Of a stretch of DNA of 64,000 bases, positions 46,019 through 64,000 are shown in pieces. The notes under the pieces were generated by a model, which was not told the origin of the DNA, searched no databases, and saw nothing but the letters and a program-made list of their open reading frames with translations. The stretch comes from Methyloterricola oryzae (GTDB lineage Bacteria; Pseudomonadota; Gammaproteobacteria; Methylococcales; Methylococcaceae). The stretch is from positions 310,001-374,000 of the forward strand of contig NZ_JYNS01000001.1 in the NCBI RefSeq assembly GCF_000934725.1, in the 5' to 3' direction. The position numbers and the translations under genes were made by a program. Every line of letters starts with the position of its first letter. The first letter of the stretch is position 1.

Positions 46019-46486
46019 ATGAAAGGCCAGACACACATCATCGATCACCTCAACGCCCTGCTCGCCGGCGAGCTGACCGCCATCGACCAGTACCTGGCGC
46101 ATGCCCGCATGTATCACGACTGGGGTTTTCACAAATTGCACGAACACACCCAGCACGAAATGGAGGAAGAACGCCAGCATGCCGACAGCCTCATCAAGCG
46201 CATCCTGTTCCTGGAAGGCACGCCCGACCTGAGCAAGCGCGAGCCACTGGCTATCGGCCGCGACGTCCCGGAAATGCTCAGGAATGACCTGGGGGTCGAA
46301 TACAAGGTGATCGCGCACCTCAAGGAGGTCATCAAAGCCTGCGAGGCTGCGCAGGACTATGAGACCCGGCGTATCCTGATGCAATTGCTGGATGACACCG
46401 AAGAGGATCACACCGACTGGCTGGAAACCCAACTCGGCCTGATCGACCGCATCGGCCTGCAGAATTACCTGCAAAGCCAGATGTGA
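46019..46486 (+). CDS. bfr: bacterioferritin, subunit lacking the haem-ligand methionine
   Basis: 155 residues. Forms a 24-mer iron store. Ferroxidase residues Glu18, Glu51, His54, Glu94, Glu128 and His131 are all present. Position 52, normally the Met that coordinates inter-subunit haem, is Arg (EEERQHADSL). This subunit type therefore cannot bind haem in the usual way; some Pseudomonas and Neisseria species pair such subunits with a haem-type partner. bfd follows 125 bases downstream behind its own Fur-type promoter. Confidence 0.95.
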   Translation: MKGQTHIIDHLNALLAGELTAIDQYLAHARMYHDWGFHKLHEHTQHEMEEERQHADSLIKRILFLEGTPDLSKREPLAIGRDVPEMLRNDLGVEYKVIAHLKEVIKACEAAQDYETRRILMQLLDDTEEDHTDWLETQLGLIDRIGLQNYLQSQM

Positions 46487-47299: not shown

Positions 47300-48613
47300 A
47301 TGTGGTCGCCTTTTCCGTTGTGGATGGCGCTGGTCTACGCCGCGCCCCTCATTCTCATCTTCTGGCTCTACGGCTCCACGCGAGCACGCAAGCAGGCACG
47401 CAGCCTGGATATTCTGCGCGCCAATGAAGAAGCCGGCCTCACCGAGCCGGTTTCACTGCACCCGGTGATCGACGCCTTTCGTTGCATAGGCTGCGGCACC
47501 TGTGTGCGCGCTTGCCCGGAAGGCGACATCCTCGGCATCATCGATAACCGGGCGCAGCTCATCAATCCCACCCATTGCATCGGCCATGGCGCCTGCAAAG
47601 CGGCGTGTCCCGTGGACGCCATCAGCCTCGTGTTCGGCACGGAAACCCGCGGCGTTGATATACCCATGGTCAAACCGGACTTCGAGACCAACATCCCTGG
47701 GATTTATATCGCTGGAGAACTGGGCGGCATGGGTCTGATCCGCAACGCCATCGAGCAGGGTCGCCAGGCCCTGGAGTCGATCAGCCAGCACGGCAGGCAA
47801 AACGACGAAAACGGCCTGGACGTCCTGATCGTAGGCGCTGGTCCTGCCGGCTTTGCCGCGTCGCTCGCAGCCAAGGAGCGCGGACTGCGCTTCGTGACCC
47901 TCGAGCAGGAATCCTTGGGCGGAGCGGTGTTTCAGTATCCGCGCGGCAAAATCGTCATGACTGCTCCGGTGGAACTGCCCTTGGTCGGCAAGGTCCGGTT
48001 GACCGAGACCACCAAGGAGGCGCTGCTGGAATTTTGGCAGGCTATCGAAAGCAAAGTCGGGCTGCAGATTCATTACCGCGAGCGCATGGAAAGCGCTACC
48101 CCTCAAGATCAAGGCTATCTGGTAACCACCAATCGGGCCCAATATCGAACCCACTCCATCCTCCTGGCCATCGGAAGGCGCGGGACACCGCGCAAGCTGG
48201 GAGTGTCCGGAGAGGAACTGCCAAAGGTGGTATACCGGCTGATCGACGCGGAGCAATACCGGGGCCGGCGCGTGCTGGTGGTCGGCGGAGGCGACAGCGC
48301 CCTGGAGGCCGCCGCGGTCATCGCCGAACAGCCGGATACCGAGGTGACCCTTTCCTACCGCGGCGACGCTTTTTCACGGGCGCGAGAGGCAAATCGCTCG
48401 CAGATCCAGGAGTTGGAAAGGCTTGGGCGTCTCAGCGTGCTCATGCCATCGGAACTCGAAAAGATCACGGCCGACACGGTGCACGTGCAATGCGCGGGCC
48501 GCTCGCGCGAAATACCCAACGACGCCGTCATCGTCTGCGCCGGCGGCGTCCTACCTACGGAATTTCTCACAGGACTCGGTATCGCCGTAGAAACCAAGTT
48601 CGGCACGCCCTGA
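47300..48613 (+). CDS. membrane-anchored ferredoxin / FAD-NAD(P) oxidoreductase
   Basis: 437 residues. One N-terminal membrane helix (8-24), a two-cluster ferredoxin domain (about 60-110) and a thioredoxin-reductase-like flavoprotein domain (VLIVGAGPAGFAASLA, VLVVGGGDSALEAAAVI). The first cluster motif is CIGCGTCVRACP. In the second the usual CxxCxxCxxxCP reads CIGHGACKAACP, with His in place of the second Cys. There is no CxxC redox pair of thioredoxin reductase. Likely moves electrons between NAD(P)H and a ferredoxin-type partner. It follows bfr-bfd, so feeding Bfd is conceivable but not shown. Relatives occur beside multihaem cytochrome genes. Confidence 0.8.
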   Translation: MWSPFPLWMALVYAAPLILIFWLYGSTRARKQARSLDILRANEEAGLTEPVSLHPVIDAFRCIGCGTCVRACPEGDILGIIDNRAQLINPTHCIGHGACKAACPVDAISLVFGTETRGVDIPMVKPDFETNIPGIYIAGELGGMGLIRNAIEQGRQALESISQHGRQNDENGLDVLIVGAGPAGFAASLAAKERGLRFVTLEQESLGGAVFQYPRGKIVMTAPVELPLVGKVRLTETTKEALLEFWQAIESKVGLQIHYRERMESATPQDQGYLVTTNRAQYRTHSILLAIGRRGTPRKLGVSGEELPKVVYRLIDAEQYRGRRVLVVGGGDSALEAAAVIAEQPDTEVTLSYRGDAFSRAREANRSQIQELERLGRLSVLMPSELEKITADTVHVQCAGRSREIPNDAVIVCAGGVLPTEFLTGLGIAVETKFGTP

Positions 48614-48659: not shown

Positions 48660-50369
48660 ATGACCTGGAACCCGTCTTCACATAAGACCCTGATACTCTT
48701 AAGCGCCCTTGCCCTGCCTTTCCGAGGCCTTCTGGGCGCCGAAATCGACCAGGGCCTTTCGGCCGTCCAACGGCACGACTATGCCAAGGCTGTCGAACTT
48801 TGGCGCCCGATGGCCGAAAAGGGCAACGCGGAAGCGCAGTATCACCTGGCCAGCCTTTACCTCACAGGACGCGGTGTACACAAGGATCCCGCCACGGCAT
48901 GCCGCTGGTTTTCCGCCTCGGCGCGGCAGGGCTTCGCCCCGGCGCAGTACGAACTGGGCCTGGTATACGAAAAAGGCTTGGGCGTCGCCGTGGACCGCGG
49001 AGAGGCCGAGCGCTGGTATCGGCGCGCCGCGGCACAGGGGCATGCCATGGCTGAGCGCCGCGCGAACGAGCCGCGCCCCGCGCATGAGGAGCAAGGCGCG
49101 GTCGGCAAAGCTCGGAGCGTTTTGCATGATGCCGTACGCCGCGGCGATATCGCTGCGGTCAAGAACGCCCTCGCAGGTGGAGCCGCCATCGATGCCCGCG
49201 ACAGCAAAGGACGCACCGCCTACCGTCTCGCGCTGGACAGTCAGCATCAAGCCATCGCCCAATTGCTCGTAGAGGCCGGTGCCCGGACCGATCTCGGACC
49301 ATCAGCCGCGAAGGTCAGCGCCAACCCGGCCAAGTGCAGCAACGCACCGCCGCTCGACAACAACAAGGCCTATCAGGGCTGGCCCGCGCTCACGATTGCC
49401 GCCTGGCGTGGCGATACCGCGGCGGTCAAGGGCTTGTTGGCACAGCGTGTCGACCCCAATGCAGCTGACGCCCGGGGAGACACGGCCATGACCCGGGCGG
49501 CTTGGAACGGTCACGCGGAAATTGTTCGCCTATTGCTGGAACACGGCGCACGCCCCGATGTCAGCGACAGCGACGGCAGAACGCCCCTCATGCGCGCCGC
49601 CAGCTTCGGCCATGTGCAAGCCGCGGAAGCCCTGTTGCAGGGTGGCGCCACCACGCAGCCGCAAGATCCTAACGGCGATTCGGCGCTCACCCTGGCTGCC
49701 TCTGCCGGGCACCTGGACGTGATCAAAGCGCTGTTAAACGCGGGCGCCGATCGCAACGCAGCCCGCAAGGACGGTCAGACAGCCCTCGCCCTCGCCGTGC
49801 GGCATGGTTTCAAAGAGGCGGCACGGGCCCTTCTGAGTGCCGGTTCCGACCCGAATCGGGCCGACGCCAGACGCGATACTCCTTTGCTGCTGGCTGTGGG
49901 GAACGGCGACGCGGCACTCGTCGATGAACTCCTGAGCCACGGCGCCGGCATCGACGCCGACGATGCCGGCGGCAATACGCCGCTGGTACTGGCCGCAAGA
50001 ACCGGGCGCACCGATATCCTGAAGGTTCTGGTGGAAAGGGGCGCCGAGGTGAATGCCGTCAATCACGGCGGCAATTCCGCCCTGATGCTAGCCGCTGCCC
50101 ATGGCCACTCGGAGGCCGTGAAGCTTTTACTTGGCCGTGGCGCTCACGTGGACGCCGCGAATCATCTGGGAAATACCGCGCTCATGCTGGCCGCCGCGCA
50201 GGGCCATGTCGACAGCGTGCGTGCCTTGCTCGATGGCAGAGCGGATACCGCGCTACGCAACAGAAATCATGATACGGCTCTGTCCCTGGCGCAAAGCAAC
50301 GCTCATCAGGCGGCAGTAGACGCACTGGAACACTGGCCTGGCGTCAACAACCGGCCAGGACTTTTCTAG
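48660..50369 (+). CDS. exported Sel1 / ankyrin-repeat protein
   Basis: 569 residues. N-terminal signal-like hydrophobic segment (LILLSALALPFRGLLGA), two to three Sel1 repeats (about 35-135, AEAQYHLASLYLTGRGVHKD), then about ten ankyrin repeats of 33 residues (from about residue 155, for example GNTALMLAAAQGHVDSVRAL) in two blocks separated by about 40 residues with a lone Cys (AKCSNAPP). Such all-repeat proteins are periplasmic scaffolds with unknown partners. It starts 46 bases after the oxidoreductase and precedes the cytochrome array by 228 bases. Confidence 0.85.
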   Translation: MTWNPSSHKTLILLSALALPFRGLLGAEIDQGLSAVQRHDYAKAVELWRPMAEKGNAEAQYHLASLYLTGRGVHKDPATACRWFSASARQGFAPAQYELGLVYEKGLGVAVDRGEAERWYRRAAAQGHAMAERRANEPRPAHEEQGAVGKARSVLHDAVRRGDIAAVKNALAGGAAIDARDSKGRTAYRLALDSQHQAIAQLLVEAGARTDLGPSAAKVSANPAKCSNAPPLDNNKAYQGWPALTIAAWRGDTAAVKGLLAQRVDPNAADARGDTAMTRAAWNGHAEIVRLLLEHGARPDVSDSDGRTPLMRAASFGHVQAAEALLQGGATTQPQDPNGDSALTLAASAGHLDVIKALLNAGADRNAARKDGQTALALAVRHGFKEAARALLSAGSDPNRADARRDTPLLLAVGNGDAALVDELLSHGAGIDADDAGGNTPLVLAARTGRTDILKVLVERGAEVNAVNHGGNSALMLAAAHGHSEAVKLLLGRGAHVDAANHLGNTALMLAAAQGHVDSVRALLDGRADTALRNRNHDTALSLAQSNAHQAAVDALEHWPGVNNRPGLF

Positions 50370-50597: not shown

Positions 50598-51644
50598 ATG
50601 CACTGGATTCCGCCCTCCCTGATCATTGACGTCCGCACCCGCAAATTCCAAAACGCCCTGAGGACCGGACTCTGCGCAATTCTCGCCGCCCCGTTGCTCC
50701 TGCCACCGGCAGAGGCGGCGAACACCTATACCTCCGCGTGTTCAAGCTGCCACGGCCCCTTGGCGAGTTCGGAACGCCGGGGACGTTCGGCCTCGCAGAT
50801 CAGGTCAGCCATCAATGCTGATCGTGGCGGGATGGGCGCCTTGCGAGGCCTGACCAACGCCGAATTGAACGACATCGCCAGGGAGTTGGGTGGCGAAGAT
50901 AATCTGCCCGAGCCTAGCGCGTCACCTACGCCAGCACCCGCGCCATCCCCTTCCTCTTCACCGCTGCCCTCACCGCCCCCCGGCGCCTGCAACGGCGCCG
51001 AGGACAAGCCGCTCGTCAATGCGCTGCCCGACCAGGATGCCAGCGTCGGTCAGACGCTCAGCATTACCGTGAGCGCCGTCGACTGCAATGATGTGCCCAT
51101 CATCATCAAGGCCTCCAAGCTCAAAGGCAGTTCCATGCCCGCGACCAGCCAGGACTTCGACGACTCAGGCCTTTGGACCGGCATATTCACGTTTACCCCG
51201 ACCCAATCTCAGGCAAACAAGTCGTTCACCGTGAAATTCACCGCGGTGGAAACAGAAGATGAACGCAAGGCATCCACCCCAAGGCCAGTGCGAATCCGCG
51301 TGTTTCCCGCCGGATCATCCTACGACGACGGCGCCGTCACCGCTGTCAAAATCCAGAGCGCGCGTTGGTCCAACGGCAACTTGCGGGTCAAGGGCAAGGT
51401 GCTATTCAGCAAGGCACTGAATGCTGCGGAGCGCGGAGCCCTGGCATCCGGCACCAACCTGAGCCTCACCGATACCAGCGGCGCCGTGACATATGCAACC
51501 GCGGCGGTCAAACCCAACGGCGAATGGTCGGTGCAAGCCGCGGCCACGGCTGAGTCCGGCGTTCCCTGTGAAATTTCGGCTCAGTTTAACGGTAAGTCCG
51601 CAACGCCGCGTACAGTGAAAAAGGCCCCGGATTGTTCGCGCTAG
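50598..51644 (+). CDS. secreted monohaem cytochrome c / PT-linker / beta-domain protein (paralogue 1)
   Basis: 348 residues. The start at 50598 has GGAG nearby and opens a signal peptide (LCAILAAPLLLPPAEAA). The cytochrome c domain has CSSCH at 48-52 and a likely Met ligand at 79 in GGMGALRGLTNAELNDIARE. A short Pro/Ser/Ala linker covers about 104-130. A beta-sandwich domain (VGQTLSITVSAVDCNDVPI through VRIRVFPAG) follows, then the array's shared C-terminal domain (ARWSNGNLRVKGKVLFSK, GVPCEISAQFNG, VKKAPDC). The two late cysteines probably form a disulphide. Close paralogue of the next gene. Function unknown; electron transfer at or outside the outer membrane is plausible. Confidence 0.82.
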   Translation: MHWIPPSLIIDVRTRKFQNALRTGLCAILAAPLLLPPAEAANTYTSACSSCHGPLASSERRGRSASQIRSAINADRGGMGALRGLTNAELNDIARELGGEDNLPEPSASPTPAPAPSPSSSPLPSPPPGACNGAEDKPLVNALPDQDASVGQTLSITVSAVDCNDVPIIIKASKLKGSSMPATSQDFDDSGLWTGIFTFTPTQSQANKSFTVKFTAVETEDERKASTPRPVRIRVFPAGSSYDDGAVTAVKIQSARWSNGNLRVKGKVLFSKALNAAERGALASGTNLSLTDTSGAVTYATAAVKPNGEWSVQAAATAESGVPCEISAQFNGKSATPRTVKKAPDCSR

Positions 51645-52132
51645 CCCCAAGCCCTTGACGACGCAATATCCGCAGCCCCTGGAATTCGCCGAGACACCTA
51701 TCCATTCAGGAAATCGCTGAACCAAGTCGGCGATTTCCTGGTGCGTCCCTTTGAAAACTCAAGGAATTAACGGCCAACCGCGCGGCTCTGCCCCCACGCG
51801 ATCCGGTGCACCAGCCAGCCCTCGTAAGACATGCCCGACATAAGAAGTCGGGGCAATACGCCACCCCAATCTTCATAACTCAGATATCGGCTTATTCTAA
51901 GTACGTGACGCCCGAGGACGTCGCAGTCCGACCGGCCAGCCAAGCCTTTATAAACCCTATAAAACCAGTGACTAAGCGATTTTGATGCCGTAACCAATGC
52001 AGGCGCCGTCAAACCACCCGACACGCCGAAGGCTACGATTTGTCCCTACGCCACGACACTTTTCCGCCCCAACAAGCCCAAAAACACACGCCGGGCCTTC
52101 CAGACATCTGAATCTAGGGAACTTTATTATTT
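51645..52132. other. gene-free upstream region of paralogue 2
   Basis: About 490 bases with no supported gene, locally richer in A+T near 51880-52130 than its surroundings. It could carry enhancer sites for the sigma-54-like promoter at 52133. No repeats or RNA family recognised. Confidence 0.5.
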
Positions 52133-52148
52133 TGGCACGCAACTTGTG
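52133..52148 (+). promoter_or_regulatory. sigma-54-like promoter of paralogue 2
   Basis: TGGCACGCAACTTGTG fits TGGCACR-N4-TTGCW except for T instead of C at the -12 GC. It lies 55 bases before the chosen ATG at 52203, with a leader of about 43 bases from the expected start site. Confidence 0.45.
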
Positions 52149-52202
52149 TTGTCTCGGGTCATGCCACCCACCGTGGCTTCCGCTGACAACACGAGATACG
52201 CC

Positions 52203-53375
52203 ATGCAACACAAGAAAACTTCTTTAGCCGCAACGACTTATCGCGCTTCGCTGCCCATGGCAGCACTTGCTCTCGCCGCGGCGGCCGTTTCCACCGACAG
52301 TCTGGCTGCCAACGATTACGCCACCAAGTGCGGTGGGTGTCACGGCGCCGATCCCAAAGGCGCGGGCGCCCCCTTCAGTTTCAAAGGTAAGAAAGACGCC
52401 TCCGCGACCAAAGCCGCCATAAGCACGCAGCCTATGATGGCCAGCCTCGCCACCCTTACTGATGCGGAATTGAATGCCATCGCCCTGGAGATGGGGGGGC
52501 AGGCGGACATTGGTGCGCCAACCGCAACCCCGACACCCGCCCCAACGGCTACACCCGCGCCGTCCGCAACACCGACTCCTTCGGCACCGCCAGCGCCATC
52601 GGCCACGCCAGCCCCCACCGCAACCCCAGTACCGAAAGCCACACCGGCTCCCACAGCTTCCCCAACTCCCACCGCATCGCCGAGCCCCACGCCTTCGACC
52701 GCGGCCTCCGCCAGTTGCGATGGTGCCTCCGCAAAAGCGAAACCCATCATGTTCCCCATCGGCGAGCAGAACGCGACGGTCGGCCAAACCCTGTCCTTCA
52801 CCGTATCCGCGCTGGACTGTAACGACGTTCCCATCCTGATCAAGGCGTCCCGGCTCAAGGGCGGATCCCTGCTGTCGGAAGGCCAGGATTTTGACACGTC
52901 AGGAGCCTGGAGCGGCCAATATCAGTTCACTCCGTCGAGTTCGCAGGCCAACCAAAGTTTCCTGGTCCGCTTCAGCGCAAAACAGACAGCGGATAGCCAC
53001 AAGGCATCCAAACCCTGGAAGGTGCGCATCCGTGTCTTCCCGGCAGGAAGCGGCTACGAAGAAGGCGCCATCACCGGGGTCAAGGTGCAAAGTGCGCGCT
53101 GGTCCGATGGAGCGCTTCTGGTGTCCGGGCGGGTCGACTTCAGTCATGCCCTGAACGCCAGCGACCGCAAGGCATACAGCGAAGGCGCCCAAATCACCCT
53201 CATCGGCGCGGGAGACAGTCAATTGGGCACGTTCCCGCTCCAGCCCAGCGGGAAGTGGAACGCTAAGGTCGATAGCCTAAGCGACTCAACGGTTCCGTGC
53301 GAAGTCAGCGCCCAACTCAACGGCCGGGAAGGCAGCCGCAGCGTCAAGAAAGCGCCGGAGACCTGCCTCAAGTAA
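52203..53375 (+). CDS. secreted monohaem cytochrome c / PT-linker / beta-domain protein (paralogue 2)
   Basis: 390 residues. The start at 52203 lies downstream of the promoter-like element and opens a signal peptide (ALALAAAAVSTDSLAA); a start further upstream would lie within the promoter. CGGCH is at residues 43-47, with MMASLATLTDAELNAIALEM giving candidate Met ligands. The linker (105-170) is almost pure Pro/Thr/Ala/Ser (for example [18 protein letters not shown]). The beta domain (VGQTLSFTVSALDCNDVP, VRIRVFPAGSGYEEGAI) and C-terminal domain (ARWSDGALLVSGRVDF, TVPCEVSAQLNG, KKAPETC) align with paralogue 1 throughout, so the pair arose by tandem duplication. The Thr-rich linker is a plausible O-glycosylation target. 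Confidence 0.84.
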   Translation: MQHKKTSLAATTYRASLPMAALALAAAAVSTDSLAANDYATKCGGCHGADPKGAGAPFSFKGKKDASATKAAISTQPMMASLATLTDAELNAIALEMGGQADIGAPTATPTPAPTATPAPSATPTPSAPPAPSATPAPTATPVPKATPAPTASPTPTASPSPTPSTAASASCDGASAKAKPIMFPIGEQNATVGQTLSFTVSALDCNDVPILIKASRLKGGSLLSEGQDFDTSGAWSGQYQFTPSSSQANQSFLVRFSAKQTADSHKASKPWKVRIRVFPAGSGYEEGAITGVKVQSARWSDGALLVSGRVDFSHALNASDRKAYSEGAQITLIGAGDSQLGTFPLQPSGKWNAKVDSLSDSTVPCEVSAQLNGREGSRSVKKAPETCLK

Positions 53376-53493
53376 ACGGCCGGCAATGAACTGAAGGGCG
53401 TGGCCCGCGCCGCGCCCGTCAGTACCACGAACCTTTCCCTCTGGTTAGCGCAGCGGGAAGGGTTTGTTATCCAACCACTACACGGAGTAACCC

Positions 53494-54774
53494 ATGAAAG
53501 AACAACGCAACACCGTATCGACCGGCGTCCCGCATGCGCCGGCCAGAAAAGTACTGGGGAGAGCGCTACCAGCCGCTGCGATGCTTGCTGCCGCAGGCTT
53601 TGCAACGGACGCCGCAGCCACCTCGAGCATATTTGCCCAGGTTGCAGGCCAGTGCGCCGCGAAATTAACGAACGGCTGCCAGACTTGCCACAATTCCACT
53701 GCAGGGGGTGAATCCAAGGGCAATGCCACCACCAGCGTCGCCAGCGCCTTCAAATCCGGCGGCGTAAATGCGGTGTGCAATCCCGTGACTGCGACACCGA
53801 CACCGACTCCAACCCCAAGACCGACGGCGACTCCGTCTCCCACAGCGTCTCCAACCCCAGGACCGACCGCGACACCCGGCCCTACAGCGACGCCACTTCC
53901 CAGTGCCACGCCGACTCCTGCACCTAGCGCGACGCCTAAGCCCACCGCAACACCTAAGCCCAGCGCAACGCCCCGACCAACCCCCGAATGTCGTGACGAC
54001 GACGATCACGAGAAGCACGAGGACCATGACCGCAAGCACGATTATGACGATCATGACTCGCGAAAGAAGGGCCGCCATGACTTCAAGGGCGATGACGATG
54101 ACCGTGATGACTGCGAGCATGACGACGATCATGCATCCAAGCCGGAACTGGACGATGCGCCCAAGAAGGTGGTCACCCGCGCCGGTACGTCTACCAAGGT
54201 TGCAGTCACGGCCCATGACGACAAGGACCGCGACGTCAAGATCGAGGCATCCAACCTGCCCAAAGGCGCTAAGGTCACCCAGGACTATGACGACGACCTA
54301 AAGAAGCCGAAGACCGTGGTCACCTGGACCCCGAAACCCGAGGACGCCGGCCAGAAAAAGACCATCGGCTTCAGGGCGGTGGCCGATGGCAGCGTGTCTC
54401 CGGAGAAGAAGGTCGACATCGAGGTGCTGCCTGCCGAGCAAGGCGTGTCTCAAGACGCAACGGTCGTGAAGTCGGCTACCGTCTCGAACGCGAGCTATAG
54501 CGCAAAGACGGGCGAGTTGAAATTGAGCGGGAAGCTGCGTTTCCGTAAGGGAATCTCCAAGTCCGACCGCTCGGCGGCTATCACCTCACCCGTCACCATC
54601 ACGGATCCGCAAAGCAACGCCGAACTGGCTCGGGTCAACGCTGATCACCGCGGAAAGTGGAGAGCCAGTATCCCCGTAGCGGATGAGAGCGCCGTTCCCT
54701 GTCTCGTCGAAGGCGAATTCCAAGGCAAAAAAGGCGTTAAGCACACCAGCGGCGCCAAGCACTGCGACAACTAA
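53494..54774 (+). CDS. secreted CxxCH protein with PT linker and Asp/His-rich segment (paralogue 3)
   Basis: 426 residues; GGAG seven bases before the ATG. After a signal peptide ([18 protein letters not shown]), the haem motif is CQTCH (62-66), in a short domain with two more cysteines (54 and 95) that differs from paralogues 1 and 2. Linker 99-164 is (T/P/A/S)-rich. Residues 166-215 contain about 20 Asp and 8 His (for example [18 protein letters not shown]) and are a likely metal-binding insert. A beta domain ([35 protein letters not shown]) and the shared C-terminal domain ([37 protein letters not shown]) follow. A strong terminator lies 62 bases downstream. Confidence 0.82.
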
Positions 54775-54836
54775 GTCTCCTGACCGCGCGGCCGGCGCTT
54801 CAGCCGTCGGCCCGTCCTTACCCCCCACTCAGCCTT

Positions 54837-54871
54837 GGGCAGGTGCTGCGGCGCAGCACCTGCCCCCTTTT
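54837..54871 (+). terminator. intrinsic terminator after paralogue 3
   Basis: GGGCAGGTGCTGC, 3-base loop, GCAGCACCTGCCC, then CCTTTT. A perfect 13-bp stem. It ends the unit containing paralogue 3 (and possibly 2), so paralogue 4 needs its own promoter. Confidence 0.85.
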
Positions 54872-55129
54872 AGGCGCAATAAATAGAAATTCACAATCAT
54901 TTCGCTACTTTTCTGCCTATTTTTTTGAGTTTTCGATGCTAATTAGCGACACATCAGATTCGTGTGGTCCGCCTCGCGCAAACGCCCGCAAAAACAGCAC
55001 GCAAGGTCCGACTGCACGTCCATGACCGGGGGCTCGCAATACGGAAAGTGTCCCGCGATAACGACATTTCTTATCAGAATTACCATGCAATTTATAAATT
55101 ATTTGATTTTTTTCAATGCTTTAAATTTA

Positions 55130-55145
55130 TGGCACACGATCTGCG
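55130..55145 (+). promoter_or_regulatory. sigma-54 promoter of paralogue 4
   Basis: TGGCACACGATCTGCG: -24 GG at 55131-55132, ten bases, -12 GC at 55143-55144, as required for sigma-54. It sits in an A+T-rich tract (55060-55130) within a 376-base stretch (54871-55246) that has no gene. The distance to the paralogue 4 ATG is 102 bases. Confidence 0.6.
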
Positions 55146-55246
55146 TAAGACATCTCCGTGACTTGTAAGTGTACAAATTCGTGGATTGGCCACGACGGCC
55201 CACACAGTTACCGGGTCACGCAAAAAACCACACTAAGGAGCGAACC

Positions 55247-56740
55247 ATGAAACCGAGACATCAGAGACCAAACCACGCGTTTCCGGAACTACACGGCAAG
55301 GCGCTACCGCTGGCGATTCTGGTCGCCACCGGCAGCGCCTTATCGGGAAGTGCCATGGCTAGCCCGGCCATTTCCGCGGCCACGGGCGTTTCAAATTGCT
55401 TCGCCTGCCATGATGCCGGTGCCACCGTTGATAAATCGACAGTGAAGGCGGGAGCACTCAGTGCCTTTCAGTCCTGTGGCAACACTGGCGTCAAGAACTT
55501 CGCCAATGGCGTTAGCCCCGCCTGTCCCCCGGCAGCCACTCCGAAACCCACCGCCGCACCAACCGCCAAACCGACGGCAGCGCCAACGGCCAAACCAACC
55601 GCCGCGCCGACCACGGCACCGATCCCGAACCCCACGACGGCACCCGTGCCGACCCCCCAGGGAACCGCAATTCCGAAGCCGACGCCTAACGGTTCCGCCG
55701 TGCCGACTCCGACACCTGCAGCAACCCCCAATCCGAGCGCTACGCCTGGCCCGAGCACCGAGCCCTCACCCGCGGCGCCAAGCGCGCCGCCAGCGGTCAA
55801 CCACATTCCGCGCATCCATGCCACGCCGGGCAGTAGCGCCAGCCTGATCGCAGGTTCTACGGTCACGATCAAGGTGGAAGCCAGCGACACCGACGGCGAC
55901 CCCATCAATTTGTCAGCTTGGCTGGACAACAAGAAGGTCTCCGCAAAGTCGGAGGACGGTTCCGCCTCATTTAGCATCAAGAACGGCGTGGGCACTTTCA
56001 GTTGGACTCCGAGCAAGCGCAGTAGCGGGCTGCATCCCTTGCTGCTGAAAGCCAGCGACGGCAAGACCAGTAGCGAGCACGAGTTGACGCTCAACGTCAA
56101 ACGGGCGGCTTGGCTGAACGAACACCCGGAAATTGCGGCGATTCCTGGCACTTTCGTGGCCCTACCGGGAAGCGAGCTGAAGATCCCCTTGAGCGCGACC
56201 GACGCCGACGGTGACCGGGTCAGCTTCAGCATCGATGAGCTGCCCAGCGGCGCAAAACTGAGCGCCACAGGGTTCGACCCAACCACGCGCCAATGGCAGG
56301 CCGAACTGGTGTATACCCCGGAAGCCCAGGACGCTGGCAAACGCTTCCCGCTGCAAATCAACGCGTCGGATGACTTCGACGCCAACAATAAGCAGATCTC
56401 AAAGCAGACGGAAATCGTGGTCATGGATAACAATGGCGCGCCGGTGGACGCCAAGATCGGTGCAATCGCCATCATCAAGGCTTTCGCACGCAACCACGAT
56501 CACACCACGCTGATCTCCGGAAAAGTCAGCTTGGCCGACAGCAGCGGCAGCTATGCCGGTTATTCGGTCAACCTGACTGATGCAGTAAGCCAGGCCAAAC
56601 TAGGCAGCGCTACCCTCAACAGCAAGGGTGAATGGCGCCTGTTCGCCACTGGCGATACGTTCTGTGTTGTCCGCGCCGAGGTTGGTGGCCACGTGGATGA
56701 AAGAACCGTTAAGAATGCGCCAGCAAGCTGCAAAGAGTAA
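55247..56740 (+). CDS. secreted CxxCH protein with long PT linker and two cadherin-like domains (paralogue 4)
   Basis: 497 residues; AAGGAG seven bases before the ATG. Signal peptide (LPLAILVATGSALSGSAMA). Haem motif CFACH (51-55), with further cysteines at 77 and 93, like paralogue 3. The linker (95-183) includes a tandem KPTAAPTA repeat. Two cadherin-like/Ig repeats follow with calcium-type DTDGDPINL and DADGDRVSF motifs (about 210-285 and 300-420), then the shared C-terminal domain (TTLISGKVSLADSSG, VNLTDAVSQAKLGSATL, GEWRLF, VVRAEVGG, VKNAPASC). It is separated from the others by a terminator and has its own sigma-54-type promoter. Confidence 0.84.
   Translation: MKPRHQRPNHAFPELHGKALPLAILVATGSALSGSAMASPAISAATGVSNCFACHDAGATVDKSTVKAGALSAFQSCGNTGVKNFANGVSPACPPAATPKPTAAPTAKPTAAPTAKPTAAPTTAPIPNPTTAPVPTPQGTAIPKPTPNGSAVPTPTPAATPNPSATPGPSTEPSPAAPSAPPAVNHIPRIHATPGSSASLIAGSTVTIKVEASDTDGDPINLSAWLDNKKVSAKSEDGSASFSIKNGVGTFSWTPSKRSSGLHPLLLKASDGKTSSEHELTLNVKRAAWLNEHPEIAAIPGTFVALPGSELKIPLSATDADGDRVSFSIDELPSGAKLSATGFDPTTRQWQAELVYTPEAQDAGKRFPLQINASDDFDANNKQISKQTEIVVMDNNGAPVDAKIGAIAIIKAFARNHDHTTLISGKVSLADSSGSYAGYSVNLTDAVSQAKLGSATLNSKGEWRLFATGDTFCVVRAEVGGHVDERTVKNAPASCKE
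55544..55615 (+). repeat. tandem 24-base coding repeats in the paralogue 4 linker
   Basis: Three consecutive copies of about 24 bases encoding KPTAAPTA/KPTAAPTA/KPTAAPTT. Codons differ between copies at third positions, so the peptide pattern is being conserved or has aged since duplication. Confidence 0.75.
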
Positions 56741-56998: not shown

Positions 56999-57475
56999 AT
57001 GAAGGTCATACTGCGCAAATTCATATTGTTCGTGGCCGTGGGCGGCACCGCCACGGCCATCCAGTACCTCATCCTGATCCTGCTGGTCCAATTCCGGCAC
57101 TGGCACCCGACCTGGGCATCGACCCTGGGTTTCATCGTCAGCTCGCTATTCAACTATGCGCTGAACTACGCCATTACCTTCAAATCCACGCGGGGCCACC
57201 TGTCCGCACTGCCTCGTTTCGTGTTCATGGCAGGAACGGGACTTGGATTGAACGGCCTGATTCTCGAAGCAGGCCTGCGGTACAGCGCATGGCCCTACAT
57301 CGGGATCCAATTGGCGGCCACCGTCGTGGTGCTATTCTGGAACTTTGTGGCCAGCCTGACCTGGACATTCGCCGCGCCGAAGCCCAAGCCGGCTCCGCCC
57401 TCACGGCGCGGAAAGAGAAGCCAGCCGGCGAAGCGCAAACCGCAGCCATCAAAACGCAAGGACAGACGAAAATGA
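56999..57475 (+). CDS. GtrA-family membrane protein (putative polyprenyl-phosphate-sugar flippase)
   Basis: 158 residues with four membrane segments: FILFVAVGGTATAIQYLILI, WASTLGFIVSSLFNYALNY, FVFMAGTGLGLNGLILEAG and IGIQLAATVVVLFWNFVAS. The C-terminal 35 residues are a very basic Lys/Arg/Pro tail. GtrA proteins are thought to move undecaprenyl-phosphate-sugar across the inner membrane. The start at 56999 matches the family N-terminus. The stop overlaps the next start (ATGA), so the flippase and synthase are coupled. Confidence 0.9.
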   Translation: MKVILRKFILFVAVGGTATAIQYLILILLVQFRHWHPTWASTLGFIVSSLFNYALNYAITFKSTRGHLSALPRFVFMAGTGLGLNGLILEAGLRYSAWPYIGIQLAATVVVLFWNFVASLTWTFAAPKPKPAPPSRRGKRSQPAKRKPQPSKRKDRRK

Positions 57476-58431
57476 CTACCCTCGCAATGGTCATCCCCTG
57501 CTACAACGAAGAAGAGGTCCTGCCGGAAACCACATCGCGCCTGGCCAGCCTTCTAGCGGATCTGCACCAGCGCGGCAAGGTCGCCGACGGCTACCGGGTC
57601 TACTATGTGGACGACGGCAGCAAGGACGCCACCTGGCGCATCATCGGCGAACAGGCCAGGACCCATGACTTCGTTTGTGGCATAAAGTTGTCGCGCAACC
57701 GTGGCCACCAGAATGCGCTGCTGGCTGGCCTGATGACCGCCCAGGCCGATGTGGTGATCAGCGTGGATGCCGACCTTCAGGACGACCTCGCGGCCATTGA
57801 GCAAATGCTGGACGCCTACCAGGGAGGCTGCGACATCGTCTTCGGCGTGCGCAAGGCGCGCAAGACCGACTCCGTGTTCAAACGCTTCACCGCGGAAGCC
57901 TACTACCGCCTGCTGGCCCTGATGGGCGTGGAGATCGTGTTCAACCATGCCGATTACCGTCTCATGAGCCGACGGGCCATCGAGGCGTTGCGCCAGTACG
58001 GGGAGGCCAATTTGTTCCTGCGCGGCATCATCCCACAGCTTGGATTCACGACCGGCACGGTCTACTACGACCGCGCCGAGCGCTTCGCCGGAGAATCGAA
58101 GTATCCTCTGAGCAAGATGCTGGCCTTGGCCCTGCAGGGGATCACGTCGTTTTCCGTGGTGCCCCTGCGAATCATCACCACCATGGGTCTTCTGATCTCC
58201 GCGATCAGCTTCGGCATCGGACTATGGGCCGTGTGGGTCCGCATTTACACCGATGAGGCCATTCCAGGCTGGGCATCCACGGTGCTTCCCATGTATTTCC
58301 TGGGCGGCATCCAGCTTCTTAGCCTCGGCGTGATTGGCGAGTACCTGGGCAAGATCTACATGGAGGCCAAGGCGCGGCCTCGTTACTTCATCGCCGAAGT
58401 CTTCGATCGCTCAGGCAAACCAAAGGACTGA
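57472..58431 (+). CDS. polyprenyl-phosphate glycosyltransferase, GT2 (GtrB/DPM1-like)
   Basis: 319 residues. N-terminal GT-A domain with VIPCYNEEEVLPETT, YYVDDGSKDAT, LSRNRGHQNALLAG and VDADLQDD, the signature of dolichyl/undecaprenyl-phosphate hexose synthases, and two C-terminal membrane helices (IITTMGLLISAISFGIGLW, VLPMYFLGGIQLLSLGVIGE). It should load mannose, glucose or a modified sugar onto the polyprenyl carrier on the cytoplasmic face. The transferred sugar is not readable from sequence. Adjacent PMT and GT-C proteins would use its product. Confidence 0.92.
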   Translation: MTTLAMVIPCYNEEEVLPETTSRLASLLADLHQRGKVADGYRVYYVDDGSKDATWRIIGEQARTHDFVCGIKLSRNRGHQNALLAGLMTAQADVVISVDADLQDDLAAIEQMLDAYQGGCDIVFGVRKARKTDSVFKRFTAEAYYRLLALMGVEIVFNHADYRLMSRRAIEALRQYGEANLFLRGIIPQLGFTTGTVYYDRAERFAGESKYPLSKMLALALQGITSFSVVPLRIITTMGLLISAISFGIGLWAVWVRIYTDEAIPGWASTVLPMYFLGGIQLLSLGVIGEYLGKIYMEAKARPRYFIAEVFDRSGKPKD

Positions 58432-58439
58432 AAATCACC

Positions 58440-60221
58440 ATGCAAGACTCCACGGCGGCAGGCGGGCGGTGGCGCATCGGCCTGTGGCTGAGCGCCGCCG
58501 CCATGCTCATCGCATTGTACTGGACCAGCATGGACCAGGACATCGAGTTCTGGAAGTCCTGGATCTGGCAGTTGCAGGTAGGGGGCTATCCCGCTCTGGC
58601 CACCATGTGGCCGCCCGCCAACTACCCGCCCCTGATCCAGCACTGGTTCCGGGTACTCGTCTGGTTGCTGGACGCTGTCGGCGCGACACCCGACAGCGAT
58701 ATGCTGGTGAAGACCTGGACCCTGCTTCCGGTGCTGCTGTGCCAGCTCTTGCTGATCGAACTGGTCGCCCGTACCCTGATCGAGCGCGGGTCGGACCCCA
58801 TGGAGTCGGCGACTTTCTGGCTTACGGTGTTCAACCCGGCGATATTCCTGACCGGACCGCTATGGGGACAGGTCGACCTTCTGCCGTTCCTTCCGCTCTA
58901 TGCCGCGATGCTGGCGGCCATGGACCGGCGCCGCGCCATCTGGACCTTGCCGCTGCTGGCCCTGGCCCTGCTGATCAAATTCCAGTCGATCGTGTTCGTG
59001 CCGGTGATTGCCGGTCTCGCGATGAATACGTGGAGGCGCCAGCTACCGGGCGCCATCATAGCCGCCCTTCTGGTCCTGCTCTGCTTTGCGCCCTTCATAC
59101 CCGCCGGCGGCATCTATGCCGCCATGGAACGCGCTTATTGGGGCAATGTGGGCGCCTTCCCCTATTTCAGCTTGAACGCGGCCAACTTCTGGTATTTATA
59201 CGCGGGAGGCAGTCATAGGCTGACGCCGCCGACCCTCCTCACCGGCGAATGGGCAGCCGCCCCCTGGGCGGCCTGGGTCAGCCCCTCGCGCATCGGCATG
59301 CTGGTGTTCGCCGCCCTCTCCGGCTTCGCCTTCCTGAGGTGCTGGCGCCGGCCTCGGCTGGATTCGGCTCTCGGCCTGGCGGTACTGACCTCCCTCGGTT
59401 TCTTTGCCTTCTCCAGCGCCATGCATGAACGCTACCTGTTCCTGGCGCTGCCCTTCTGCGCCCTGTGGGTCAGCCACCAACCCCGGTATCGCCTCTGGTA
59501 CCCGTTACTCACCACCATCGTCTACCTCAACACCAATTTCGTACTCAACCTGGCCAGCCCCCCGGGTTGGAAAATCCTTTCGGTGACGGTAATCCTGGCA
59601 TTCTTCGGACTCGCCTTGCATGTCACCAGCCGACGTTTCGAGGTGGCGGCCCATGCCCTGATCAACTACTTGAGCAGCGCACCCGGCTTGCCCTACGCGG
59701 CGTTGATCGTGGCCTGGACGGGACTGTTCGGGATGGAGCTGGCCGATGCCATTCCACGGCCAGCCCAAGCGATGCTTAACGGAGAACAGGCATTGTTTCT
59801 GAACCAGTTGGCACCGGAAAACCAGTACCAGGAATGGGGGGAACTGCAGACGGACCGCAACCTGCAGGGCCAGCCGCTATGTATCGCCGCGGACTGCTAT
59901 GCCACGGGCCTTGCAACCCACGCACGCTCGTCCATAGCTTACCGTATCCCGGAGGATGCCTGCCGCTTCAAGGCCACGGCCGGACTGGATCGGAGCAGCA
60001 GCGGCGGCCGCGTCATGTTTTCCGTCGAATTGGACCAGGTTAGGATCTGGAATAGTCCGGAACTGACCTCGGGCAGCGCGGCCATGCCCGTCGACGTCAG
60101 CATAAAGGGCGGACGCCGCCTGTTACTCTCGGTGGACTCCCTCGGCGATAACAACAACGATCATGCCGACTGGGCCGAGGCCCGCTTCGAGGCTTGCCAA
60201 GAAACTGGCGAAAGGAATTGA
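58440..60221 (+). CDS. GT-C-like multispanning membrane protein with C-terminal NPCBM-like domain
   Basis: 593 residues, about ten to eleven membrane helices in residues 10-440 with loop motif FLTGPLWGQVDLLPFLPL, resembling ALG6/ALG8-type or bacterial mannosyltransferases that use lipid-phosphate sugars. Residues about 475-590 are a soluble periplasmic domain (NRNLQGQPLCIAA-like start, GLATHARSSIAYRIPEDACR, FKATAGLDRSSSGGRVMFSV, LLLSVDSLGDNNNDHADWAEA). This matches the NPCBM carbohydrate-binding module pattern (GxGxHaxS...Y, aGiD, L.v...G....DHadWa.a). A membrane transferase fused to a glycan-binding module is unusual. Eight bases after the GT2 stop. Confidence 0.82.
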   Translation: MQDSTAAGGRWRIGLWLSAAAMLIALYWTSMDQDIEFWKSWIWQLQVGGYPALATMWPPANYPPLIQHWFRVLVWLLDAVGATPDSDMLVKTWTLLPVLLCQLLLIELVARTLIERGSDPMESATFWLTVFNPAIFLTGPLWGQVDLLPFLPLYAAMLAAMDRRRAIWTLPLLALALLIKFQSIVFVPVIAGLAMNTWRRQLPGAIIAALLVLLCFAPFIPAGGIYAAMERAYWGNVGAFPYFSLNAANFWYLYAGGSHRLTPPTLLTGEWAAAPWAAWVSPSRIGMLVFAALSGFAFLRCWRRPRLDSALGLAVLTSLGFFAFSSAMHERYLFLALPFCALWVSHQPRYRLWYPLLTTIVYLNTNFVLNLASPPGWKILSVTVILAFFGLALHVTSRRFEVAAHALINYLSSAPGLPYAALIVAWTGLFGMELADAIPRPAQAMLNGEQALFLNQLAPENQYQEWGELQTDRNLQGQPLCIAADCYATGLATHARSSIAYRIPEDACRFKATAGLDRSSSGGRVMFSVELDQVRIWNSPELTSGSAAMPVDVSIKGGRRLLLSVDSLGDNNNDHADWAEARFEACQETGERN

Positions 60222-60245: not shown

Positions 60246-62159
60246 GTGGGCGTCCTCTACTTGCTGGTGTTCCTGGCCCTGGGCGTACTCACTGCCTGGC
60301 GTGTCTTCCGCGATCAGCCGGAGTGGTTCCGCATCTGGTCCGGCAGCCTGCTGGGACTGGCGGGCATGATGTGGCTGGTGGCCTTGTTCTCGTTCCCGTT
60401 CGGCTTCGGCACGCTAAGCCACGGCCTGGCGCTGGGCGCCATGGCTGTGATACCTCTGCTGAGCTGGCGATTCGCCTCGCCCGCGCCATCTCCGCCAGTG
60501 GAATCCAAGAGCATCTTCGCGCCGGCACTTACCTTCACCCTGCCCTTCCTTCTACTTTACGCCTACCTGTTGCACACCCACGTGCTGTTGCCAGGCGAGG
60601 ACGGCGGTCTCTACGTGGGTCAGTCCACCTTCGGCGACCTCAGCCTGCACCTGGGCATCGTATCCAGCATTGCCGTTCAGGGGCATTTTCCGCCCGAATA
60701 CTCCATCTTTCCGGGCCACCGGCTCAGCTACCCCTTCCTGGTCGATTCCCTCTCTTCGTCCTTCTTCCTGTTGGGCACACCACTGCGCTGGGCTGTCCTA
60801 CTGCCCAGCCTGGTGCTGATGGCCTGCGTGCTTTGGGGTTTTCCCGTCCTGGCTTATGCCGTCACAGGCAGCCGAGCAGCCGCTATCCTCGCCGCCGTCC
60901 TGTTCTTTCTGAACGGAGGCTTTGGCTTCGCCTATTTCCTGGAGAATCTGGCCACGGACCCCGGAAATTTCACCCGTATCTTCTCGGCGTTCTACGAAAC
61001 CCCAACCAATCTGGTGGATAAAAACATACGCTGGGTCAATGTCATCTGCGACATGCTGATTCCCCAGCGCACGACCTTGGCCGGCTGGGCATTTCTGCTT
61101 CTTGCCCTTTGGCTCCTCCAGCATGCCCTGAGCAGCCGGAAGGCGCGCTACTTCCTCGCAACCGGCGTGGTCGCAGGGCTCATGCCGATGATCCACACCC
61201 ATTCCTTCCTGGGCCTGGGACTGGTTTCGCTGGGCTGGCTGCTTGCCCATAGTCCGGACCAGACGCCAGGCGACCGCCGCGCTTATTGGAAACATTGGCT
61301 GCTCTACGCTGCGATCGCCGCCTTGCTTTCCATACCGCAATTGACCTACTGGACCTTCCGCCAGGCCAATGAAGGGGGCTTCGTCAAGCTGCACCTCGAC
61401 TGGGCCAACGATCACGACATCTGGCCCTGGTTCTGGGTCAAGAATGTGGGGCCGGTGTTTCTCCTGGTTTTCCCGTCGCTATGCGCCGCGGACCGGCGCC
61501 GCTGGCAGATCCATTCCGGAGCCTTGCTGATTTTCGTGGTTGCGGAGCTATGGATCTTTCAGCCCAACCCCTATGACAACAACAAGCTGTTTTACATCTG
61601 GTATGTGTTCGCCTGCATCCTGGTGGGCGAATACCTGGTCCGGCTGTGGAATGGGCTGGCTGGAAGGCGTGAGCGCGTGGTGCTGGCTGCCGGCGTGCTT
61701 CTGGTCTGCAGCTTCGCGGCCCTTCTGAGTCTGGGCAGGGAGGCGGTCTCGTCCTACCGCCTGTTCGATGCGGACGAAGTCGCTGCGGCAGAGTTCATCA
61801 AGGCCCAAACCCCCAAGGACAGCCTGTTTCTGACGGCCGACAACCACAACAACGCGGTGGCCGTGCTAACCGGGCGCAATATCGTGCTCGGGTCCCCGTC
61901 CTTCCTGTTTTTCCACGGGATCAACTACGAACGCCAGGCGGCGGACGTGGCCCGCTTGTTCACGCAACCGGAAAGCGCGCGCGAACTGATGGATCGTTAC
62001 CATATCGACTACGTCTATCTCAGCGACTACGAGCGGCGGCGCTTCAAAATCGATGGCCGAGATTACCAGCGGCATTATCCCATCGTGTTCCATAGGGGGG
62101 GCATCGACATAGTCGCGGTATCCGACCGGGCCCGCGCAATCCCGGCAGCAATGCCCTAG
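60246..62159 (+). CDS. large multispanning membrane protein, GT-C-like
   Basis: 637 residues from a GTG start at 60246. About twelve membrane helices. A first large loop contains LPGEDGGLYVGQSTFGDLSL HLG-type sequence (Asp/Glu after the first helices, typical of GT-C enzymes), and the C-terminal 130 residues form a soluble domain (AAEFIKAQTPKDSLFLTADN, YHIDYVYLSDYERRRFKID) as in bacterial membrane glycosyltransferases of unknown specificity. It follows the NPCBM fusion by 24 bases, presumably in the same operon as gtrA. Confidence 0.75.
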   Translation: MGVLYLLVFLALGVLTAWRVFRDQPEWFRIWSGSLLGLAGMMWLVALFSFPFGFGTLSHGLALGAMAVIPLLSWRFASPAPSPPVESKSIFAPALTFTLPFLLLYAYLLHTHVLLPGEDGGLYVGQSTFGDLSLHLGIVSSIAVQGHFPPEYSIFPGHRLSYPFLVDSLSSSFFLLGTPLRWAVLLPSLVLMACVLWGFPVLAYAVTGSRAAAILAAVLFFLNGGFGFAYFLENLATDPGNFTRIFSAFYETPTNLVDKNIRWVNVICDMLIPQRTTLAGWAFLLLALWLLQHALSSRKARYFLATGVVAGLMPMIHTHSFLGLGLVSLGWLLAHSPDQTPGDRRAYWKHWLLYAAIAALLSIPQLTYWTFRQANEGGFVKLHLDWANDHDIWPWFWVKNVGPVFLLVFPSLCAADRRRWQIHSGALLIFVVAELWIFQPNPYDNNKLFYIWYVFACILVGEYLVRLWNGLAGRRERVVLAAGVLLVCSFAALLSLGREAVSSYRLFDADEVAAAEFIKAQTPKDSLFLTADNHNNAVAVLTGRNIVLGSPSFLFFHGINYERQAADVARLFTQPESARELMDRYHIDYVYLSDYERRRFKIDGRDYQRHYPIVFHRGGIDIVAVSDRARAIPAAMP

Positions 62160-63720: not shown

Positions 63721-64000
63721 CTAGAAATCCCAACGATAGCCGGCGCTGATATAGTAACCGGTCGTATCCCTTTCGTCCTTGAAAACCGGCTGATTGGCGT
63801 ATTCGAAGCCCCCTTCCAGTTCCAGATTGAGCTTGCCGGCGACCCGGTAGTTGAAACGCAGGCCCGGCCGTACGCGCCAGACGCTCGGTCCGTCAAAGCT
63901 GGTGAAATAGTCCACCCGGAGTCTCGGGTCCAGCCGGATATCCGGCGTCACCGGGTGGCGTCCATCGACGAACAGGGAAATGTAGTCGTTGATCTGCTGA
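63721..64000 (-). CDS. outer-membrane beta-barrel protein (partial, N-terminus outside window)
   Basis: The last 93 or so residues of a protein running in from the right edge. Alternating hydrophobic strands (VWRVRPGLRFNYRVAGKLNL, LELEGGFEYANQPVF, TTGYYISAGYRWDF) and a C-terminal Phe preceded by aromatic residues are the BAM recognition pattern of outer-membrane proteins. Role unknown; such barrels, often fused to TPR domains, accompany surface or exopolysaccharide systems. The gap of 198 bases to the PMT gene downstream has no gene. Confidence 0.75.
   Translation of the reverse strand, partial: QQINDYISLFVDGRHPVTPDIRLDPRLRVDYFTSFDGPSVWRVRPGLRFNYRVAGKLNLELEGGFEYANQPVFKDERDTTGYYISAGYRWDF

Follow-up and report, generated by a model that had tools for sequence, protein, structure and literature searches.

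A tandem array of Pro/Thr-tethered CxxCH proteins beside a predicted PCC3-type porin-cytochrome cluster in Methyloterricola oryzae

Results

Four tandem genes encode secreted CxxCH proteins

The window analysed here is a 64,000-nucleotide stretch of the Methyloterricola oryzae genome (contig NZ_JYNS01000001.1, positions 310,001 to 374,000), and the subject of this report is an array of four tandem genes, designated P1 to P4, at window positions 50598-56740 (Table 1). A first-pass annotation had described secreted proteins with one CxxCH motif each, a linker, immunoglobulin-like (Ig-like) domains and a shared C-terminal domain, and four plus-strand open reading frames (ORFs) of this architecture were recovered, with a single CxxCH motif in every protein. 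The linkers, made of Pro, Thr, Ser and Ala (that of P1 being richer in Ser than Thr), are present as described, but their measured lengths of 32, 71, 74 and 101 residues replace the earlier estimate of about 25 to 90. Signal peptides were called by eye, and the starts were re-examined and set by hand: 52203 was preferred for P2, the longer GTG start at 52146 falling within the promoter-like site at 52133, and the ATG with AAGGAG upstream was chosen for P4 in preference to a GTG at 55169. P1 and P2 are 49% identical, and identity to P1 falls to 30% for P3 and 26% for P4.

Both the Pfam search and the sequences bear out two N-terminal types, a small cytochrome c domain in P1 and P2 and a short domain with extra cysteines in P3 and P4. 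The Pfam model Cytochrome_CBB3 matched P1 at E 2e-5 and P2 at E 2e-4, both under the curated cut-off, and the N-terminal regions of P3 and P4 had no Pfam match at E <=0.001. A Met occupies the class I cytochrome sixth-ligand position in P1 and P2, in a column at least 90% conserved in an alignment of the family (A5). Conservation of CxxCH among relatives had been set beforehand as the test of the proposed haem attachment, and the motif was invariant in all 14 rows of A5; in a further alignment (A7), its second Cys and its His were kept in 13 of 13 rows.

Between the linker and the Ig-like domain of P3 lies a 55-residue stretch (53989-54153) with 21 Asp and 8 His that is likely metal-binding, and P3 and P4 may be accessory proteins (ligand- or metal-binding) rather than electron carriers. 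The window also holds genes for a ferritin (46019-46486) and a 4Fe-4S/FAD oxidoreductase (47300-48613), both upstream of the Sel1/Ank gene. These features would suit a role in copper or iron capture at the cell surface, with the haem reducing the metal; however, the Asp/His stretch is found in only one of the four proteins, and the ferritin and the oxidoreductase had no match in the Methylococcus loci examined (tblastn at 1e-5). Metal capture is an improbable explanation of the array, and no positive evidence emerged for it, suggested in the first-pass annotation, or for adhesion as the main role, the Asp/His stretch keeping metal binding possible for P3.

Table 1. Features of the array and its surroundings in window coordinates
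Feature	Position	Strand	Description
P1	50598-51644	+	348 amino acids (aa); signal peptide, PgcA-like monohaem cytochrome c domain, 32-aa linker, Ig-like domain, C-terminal module
P1 haem c motif CSSCH	50739-50753	+	
P2	52203-53375	+	390 aa; signal peptide, monohaem cytochrome c domain, 71-aa linker, Ig-like domain, C-terminal module
P2 haem c motif CGGCH	52329-52343	+	
P3	53494-54774	+	426 aa; signal peptide, short CxxCH domain with extra Cys, 74-aa linker, Asp/His-rich stretch, Ig-like domain, C-terminal module
P3 motif CQTCH	53677-53691	+	
P4	55247-56740	+	497 aa; signal peptide, short CxxCH domain, 101-aa linker, two Ig/cadherin-like domains (Big_9), C-terminal module
P4 motif CFACH	55397-55411	+	
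Sigma54 (-24/-12)-like site TGGCACGCAACTTGTG	52133-52148	+	70 bases before P2
Sigma54-like site TGGCACACGATCTGCG	55130-55145	+	117 bases before P4
Sel1 and ankyrin repeat protein (Sel1/Ank), secreted-looking	48660-50369	+	Pfam Sel1 and Ank; marks the upstream side of the syntenic locus
GtrA/DPMS transmembrane protein, putative polyprenyl-phosphate sugar flippase partner	56999-57475	+	PF04138, E 3.6e-23
GT2 glycosyltransferase	57493-58431	+	PF00535, E 5e-25; DPM1-like position in the locus
Membrane protein, probably GT-C type glycosyltransferase (by inspection)	58440-60221	+	C-terminal NPCBM, PF08305
Second large membrane protein, probably GT-C type glycosyltransferase	60246-62159	+	Weak chlor_Arch_YYY match, E 2.5e-7, under cut-off
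PMT-type protein O-mannosyltransferase	62188-63522	-	PF02366, E 3e-25 (89.5 bits); PF16192, E 5e-13 (49.6 bits); both above Pfam cut-off
PCC3-type porin candidate, C-terminal part	63721-64000	-	Gene runs on to contig 375898, outside the window

The haem domain of P1 is related to PgcA

PgcA of Geobacter sulfurreducens has been described as three haem domains on flexible Pro/Thr (PT) linkers reaching 180 Å, which pass electrons by tethered diffusion, with iron oxide bound by domain III only (PMC11520253; this and the other papers below are cited from the portions of their text available). When the P1 haem domain alone was compared with the PDB, the only matches at E 0.1 were PgcA domains I and II, at 2.3e-11 (8qj6) and 4.9e-10 (8qjg). 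The P1 domain is homologous to these two domains and has His and Met as candidate ligands, and in P1 to P4, as in PgcA, long Pro/Thr linkers (32-101 residues) bear the CxxCH heads. The P2 haem domain aligns with the family in A5, with its Met in the ligand column; the heads of P3 and P4 are not of the PgcA I/II type.

Unlike PgcA with its three haem motifs, P1 to P4 have one each and form a tandem array of paralogues. They also differ in having no lipobox Cys at the end of the signal peptide, as judged by eye, and thus no lipoprotein anchor of the PgcA kind, and in their Ig-like stem and C-terminal module, which the available text on PgcA does not mention (PMC11520253). Two or three heads were found only in relatives: in the Methylococcus metagenome-assembled genome (MAG) STC_26, whose relatives of the array proteins have between one and three heads, the proteins L046 and L047 have two and three CxxCH heads, respectively, with PT linkers between them, followed by the shared Ig and C-terminal domains, and the last haem head of L047 matches PgcA at E 2e-16. 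These multi-head relatives tie the array to a PgcA-like architecture, beyond the cytochrome fold alone. A literature search pairing PgcA with Methylococc found nothing. Elsewhere, a single 1432-aa frame (G145:C5:90587-93589) contained 13 matches to the profile of the PgcA-like haem domain, compared with three in PgcA.

The array adjoins a PCC3-type porin-cytochrome cluster

PCC3 clusters are recognised by an inner-membrane protein (IMP) of approximately 300 aa with two WX3HX13H motifs and one SGXXG motif, and 'Methylococaceae sp. 73a' is listed among their holders (He et al. 2017, PMC5566968); a conduit in this strain was therefore already known as a prediction. In the present genome, a porin candidate of 725 aa, which stands in the right position and ends in GYRWDF, is followed beyond the window, up to contig position 379450, by an 11-haem cytochrome, a 21-haem cytochrome and an IMP. 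The 315-aa IMP has WX3HX13H motifs at 108 and 290 and SGXXG at 149, and a crude hydropathy scan gave five peaks, two of them overlapping, where five transmembrane helices are expected of PCC3. The 21-haem cytochrome (491 aa, contig 376901-378376, predicted periplasmic) has 21 CxxCH motifs, in line with the approximately 21 haems of its PCC3 counterpart, and the 11-haem cytochrome (11 CxxCH, predicted extracellular, 64% identical over 280 aa to that of Methylococcus) lies within the PCC3 range of 10-35 haems.

In these neighbouring genes the locus resembles the PCC3 clusters of He et al. (2017) and of a Gallionellaceae survey (2023); dissimilar from them, as far as the available portions of both descriptions go, are the array, Sel1/Ank and PMT genes, and an array beside PCC3 is unmentioned in the available text of He et al. 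(PMC5566968). A search of the literature for PCC3 together with Methylococc found no paper, though He et al. spell the name 'Methylococaceae'. The first-pass annotation had omitted the neighbouring genes from which the array takes its meaning, in part because these extend past the end of the window. An MtrB/PioB-type conduit was rejected as the route: PF11854 is absent from the M. oryzae genome, and no Methylococcus genome is among the 11 of 101 in which it was matched. On a contig of another genome (L164:1-5730, G005), a porin relative lies next to a cytochrome with 32 CxxCH motifs in the part read, a PCC3-like pair.

Array and porin genes are present, truncated or absent together

The M. oryzae assembly (G000) comprises 4,902,375 bases in 73 contigs, in which the AMO/pMMO subunit A family has three matches, and pmoCAB and pxmABC have been published for strain 73a (PMC5604758). 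Among 37 relatives of the same family were six Methylococcus genomes; three of these (G031, G017 and G027) have three array genes in a row each, and STC_26 (G034) has four scattered array-type genes (L045-L048, L048 incomplete). A scan of named genomes with one peptide pattern gave five loci in two Methylococcus assemblies. The order Sel1/Ank, array, GtrA, GT2, divergent PMT, porin, 11-haem, 21-haem is common to M. oryzae, G031, G017 and G027, with Sel1/Ank, array, GtrA, GT2 and PMT confirmed in the latter three by tblastn with the window proteins. The Sel1/Ank gene also stands upstream of an array-type gene in STC_26; by locus, it was matched in L041, L042, L043 and L046 and in neither L044 nor L077. 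The porin and 21-haem genes are kept in all four of these Methylococcus genomes (tblastn), as is the 11-haem gene, of which the stretch read in G027 has 8 CxxCH. The two genes between GT2 and PMT in the window (58440-60221 and 60246-62159) are absent from the Methylococcus loci (tblastn); a 44% identical relative of the former lies beside PMT in G099.

The porin is full length in G000, G017, G027, G031 and G034, which are the five genomes with array genes. In G008, a 52-residue porin remnant accompanies a 210-aa array remnant, and in G023, which has no array, no porin was found, the five module matches lying in frames of 1010-1433 aa that are not array-like in size; PMT, GT2 and GtrA are retained in G023. 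No Sel1/Ank match was found in G023 where the array would be expected, nor in the G008 locus examined. The joint presence, truncation and absence of array and porin is the strongest link between the array and the conduit, in what is a small sample of seven related genomes. Weaker porin relatives were found in G005, G043 and G039; the contigs read there are short and show no array.

In a broad sample of 369 Gammaproteobacteria, the C-terminal module and the PCC3 IMP co-occurred in 7 of 18 genomes with the module, compared with 40 of 351 others (p 0.004); once weak IMP hits were dropped (4/18 versus 36/351), p rose to 0.12, and this co-occurrence was therefore not used as support. PgcA-type haem domains were present in 9 of the 369, without a demonstrated link to PCC3.

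Sigma54-like sites precede array and PCC3 genes

Sites resembling sigma54 promoters were scored with self-made weights based on the sigma54 consensus, with a cut of 13.5 of 16. In addition to the sites before P2 and P4, such sites stand at -154 to -158 of the first array gene in each of G031, G017 and G027, and two of three scattered genes of STC_26 have one as well. Of the 16 array genes, 7 scored at least 13.5, as did 8 of the 191 control ORFs, and the eight passing controls include two array genes that escaped the filter, two PCC3 genes and two b561 genes; the Fisher p of 1.8e-5 assumes independence between related promoters and should not be taken as a real probability. The exact sequence TGGCACGNNNNTTGCW occurs once in the 4.9 Mb genome, 38-53 bases before the PCC3 IMP, and the reversed-pattern control occurs 0 times. 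A search of the window allowing one mismatch returned 20 sites versus 15.4 expected, so that little weight can be put on any one site found at this low stringency.

Upstream of the Sel1/Ank gene, Methylococcus has a cytochrome b561 gene (PF01292, read in G031), which might be a stand-in for the PCC3 inner-membrane protein missing there. Two b561 genes (L042:4382-5101 and L046:703-1422) are preceded by a sigma54-like site.

The C-terminal domain is a shuffled Ig-like module

About 105 aa of the C-terminal domain align across P1 to P4, with an invariant G, W and two Cys; that much of the pattern given in the first-pass annotation stood, and its K-x-A-P-x-x-C ending proved approximate (P3 ends G-A-K-H-C and P1 A-P-D-C). 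With the P1 domain as single query, P2 was matched at E 5e-31, P3 at 6e-9 and P4 at 0.02, and P4 scored 3e-29 with a profile that itself includes P4; on these alignment scores, the likeness among the array proteins is beyond chance. The module had no Pfam or NCBIfam match over cut-off; an adhesin repeat model (NF033510, Ca2+-stabilised) touches it in the hydrogenase-linked paralogue, at E 0.0018 and 18.6 bits compared with a cut-off of 50. By sequence it had no credible match to the PDB (best E 0.2), and P2 had no match among plasmids. In the predicted structure of P2, two beta domains resembling tandem Ig-like domains were mostly confident (predicted local distance difference test of 82-97 in 10-residue blocks, with dips to 67-70), and fold searches with P2 and P4 gave generic Ig/cadherin-like folds that indicate no function, the haem domains being barely covered.

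A profile search with the C-terminal domain alone (A2) gave eight copies in the M. oryzae genome. Of the four outside the array, one ends a 360-aa protein encoded in a PEP-CTERM-like region, two lie near the start of nine-haem proteins of 942 and 892 aa, and the fourth lies close to the C-terminus of a 541-aa CxxCH/Ig protein from a hydrogenase operon. The module is present at least once in 31 of 101 relatives (own genome counted) and in 18 of the 369 Gammaproteobacteria (own genome and G008 included), and 9 of the 16 loci read outside Methylococcales have at least two CxxCH motifs in the part read, with the module towards the start. The C-terminal domain is thus an Ig-like module that has been shuffled among proteins, often exported redox proteins, and it also stands at the start of large multihaem cytochromes. 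Its proposed standing as the mark of an undescribed array family was not upheld; the four-gene array itself is real, but its type is kept in Methylococcus and the module is not peculiar to it.

In the models of P2 and P4, the Ig/cadherin folds are similar to domains of adhesins (SraP, SrpA). The array proteins could accordingly be read as periplasmic or surface adhesion or matrix proteins in which function resides in the Ig-like domains, the haem serves as a sensor or a structural cap, and any electron transfer is a side effect, and both the missing classical sixth ligand in P3 and P4 and the existence of module proteins without CxxCH would suit such a role. However, Ig folds are common and do not show function, and the conservation of the CxxCH motif in A5 and A7, the PgcA homology of P1 and the shared fate of array and porin all speak against it, and adhesion as the explanation is considered unlikely.

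Several further carriers of the module were observed. The hydrogenase-linked protein of M. oryzae (contig C8, L009:5350-10607) has the order CxxCH, PKD, Pro/Ser linker, Big_9 and C-terminal module, lies between the large-subunit gene of a second NiFe hydrogenase and HupE/UreJ, and begins with an ATG a few bases past the hupL stop; G019 likewise pairs a hydrogenase large subunit (C131:4241-5920) with a module protein (C131:7363-7641). Similar module proteins of 577-595 aa, each with CxxCH behind the signal peptide, were found at L026, L028, L029 and L030. The hydrogenase-linked protein may serve the hydrogenase as a haem partner. In G075, which belongs to another family within the order, three tandem genes (L057:198-5595) encode CxxCH and module proteins, one with a long repeated Cys-containing linker.

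Proteins of the c553o family have about 8 haems. Two nine-haem proteins of approximately 1000 aa from two Methylococcus genomes (L058 and L059) carry the module near the N-terminus and probably belong to this family, an assignment made on proteins other than those of strain Bath. P1 to P4 share the module with such proteins and differ from the multihaem, approximately 1000-aa c553o proteins of Methylococcus capsulatus (MCA0338, 0421, 0423, 0424, 2160 and 2259) in being monohaem, 348-497 aa long and C-terminal in module position. MCA0338 has been found in the medium (PMC4257694) and other c553o proteins in the surface fraction (PMC4831470); if these proteins carry the module, as L058 and L059 do, the module travels with proteins that reach the surface. 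M. capsulatus Bath yields anodic current and reduces Fe(III), more so under copper limitation, and deletion of its main surface cytochrome, MCA0421, lowers the current only in part (PMC6281684).

Since the module is common to c553o-like proteins and a NiFe hydrogenase operon protein, the array might be an independent cytochrome family that stands beside PCC3 by chance and works with a different partner, for example the c553o cytochromes or a hydrogenase; the short contigs with distant porin relatives and no array (G005, G043 and G039) would agree with this. Against such independence stand the joint fate of array and porin in seven genomes, the conserved gene order and the sigma54-like sites before both array and PCC3, and a chance neighbourhood is regarded as rather improbable.

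Glycosyltransferase genes lie between array and porin

Protein O-mannosylation by actinobacterial Pmt is a known system for comparison. As in that system, the window PMT has PF02366 and PF16192 and stands, with GT2 and GtrA, beside Thr/Ser/Pro-rich secreted proteins; unlike it, the host is Gram-negative, the window system is known from genes alone, and the score against the NCBIfam Pmt equivalog NF058602 is 51 bits, far below the cut-off of 800. PF16192 is rare (11 of 101 genomes), and a gene with it lies no more than 6 kb from the array in G000, G017, G027 and G031, from an array-type gene of the same contig in G034 and from the array remnant in G008. From this gene order, it is proposed that the array linkers may be O-mannosylated. 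A literature search for O-mannosylated cytochromes gave nothing relevant among the matches listed.

Discussion

Of the roles suggested in the first-pass annotation, surface electron transfer is the best reading, backed by the PgcA-like haem domain of P1, the adjoining PCC3-type cluster, the joint fate of array and porin and the sigma54-like sites. The array proteins are probably monohaem cytochromes that are exported, tethered by Pro/Thr linkers and serve the adjoining predicted PCC3-type conduit as mobile electron carriers on its outer side. In the mechanism envisaged, the cytochrome-b-like IMP would take electrons from the quinone pool and hand them to the 21-haem periplasmic cytochrome, and the porin with the 11-haem cytochrome would then carry them across the outer membrane. 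There, the haem heads of P1 and P2 would swing on long disordered linkers and bear electrons some nanometres onward, like the tethered diffusion of PgcA in Geobacter, while Ig-like stems and C-terminal modules would hold both proteins to the surface layer. GtrA, GT2 and PMT may O-mannosylate the Thr/Ser-rich linkers, stiffening and protecting them, and sigma54 may switch the expression of conduit and array. Inward flow of electrons, from Fe(II) or from partners, is equally possible because PCC3 has been proposed in iron oxidisers.

Several observations weigh against this reading. With regard to the haem heads, the P2 haem domain alone had no match in the PDB at 0.01, and in P3 and P4 neither Met nor His occurs in the stretch from CxxCH to the linker, so the classical sixth ligand is absent and any haem there is not of the usual His/Met or His/His kind. 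The module, moreover, is also carried by proteins without CxxCH, namely L050, L055, the 360-aa M. oryzae protein and three 183-198 aa proteins of another group of genomes (g10). With regard to the conduit, the porin candidate has no Pfam match, a crude beta-strand count separated neither it from controls nor two of three MtrB positives well, and the PCC3 IMP has no match in the Methylococcus loci examined and none anywhere in G008. Window and Methylococcus array genes show no clear one-to-one orthology in a weakly supported tree. P1, P3 and 7 of 12 Methylococcus array genes, second and third genes included, score below 13.5 as sigma54 sites, and orthologous sites are not independent of one another; the low-scoring genes could be read through or served by other promoters. 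PMT also occurs without an adjoining array in G023, in three g10 genomes (two contigs read), where the module proteins read are the 183-198 aa ones without CxxCH, and in G099, and the enzyme is therefore not dedicated to the array.

A more far-reaching version, which we hold only tentatively and consider rather doubtful as a whole, is that the Methylococcaceae have a sigma54-controlled apparatus in which the PCC3 conduit feeds a brush of O-mannosylated PgcA-type heads on Ig-like stems, switched on when oxygen is scarce. If true, this would be a glycoprotein version of tethered-diffusion electron transfer in a methanotroph.

Each part of the locus has a known relative (PgcA, PCC3, PMT and c553o). 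In the literature searched, which most subscription papers lie outside, no description was found of tethered monohaem proteins on Ig stems that form a paralogous array joined to a PCC3 conduit in methanotrophs. As to how electrons pass outward in aerobic methanotrophs, the available text of the work on M. capsulatus Bath names no outer-membrane route (PMC6281684). The present locus offers a candidate route in Methyloterricola, from inner-membrane protein through porin to mobile surface carriers, and the same candidate route, minus the inner-membrane protein at the locus, in Methylococcus, where genetics exists. The principle of tethered haem would thereby be widened from one Geobacter protein to a multi-gene family, and O-mannosylation of the linkers would be a testable means by which such haem stalks may be protected.

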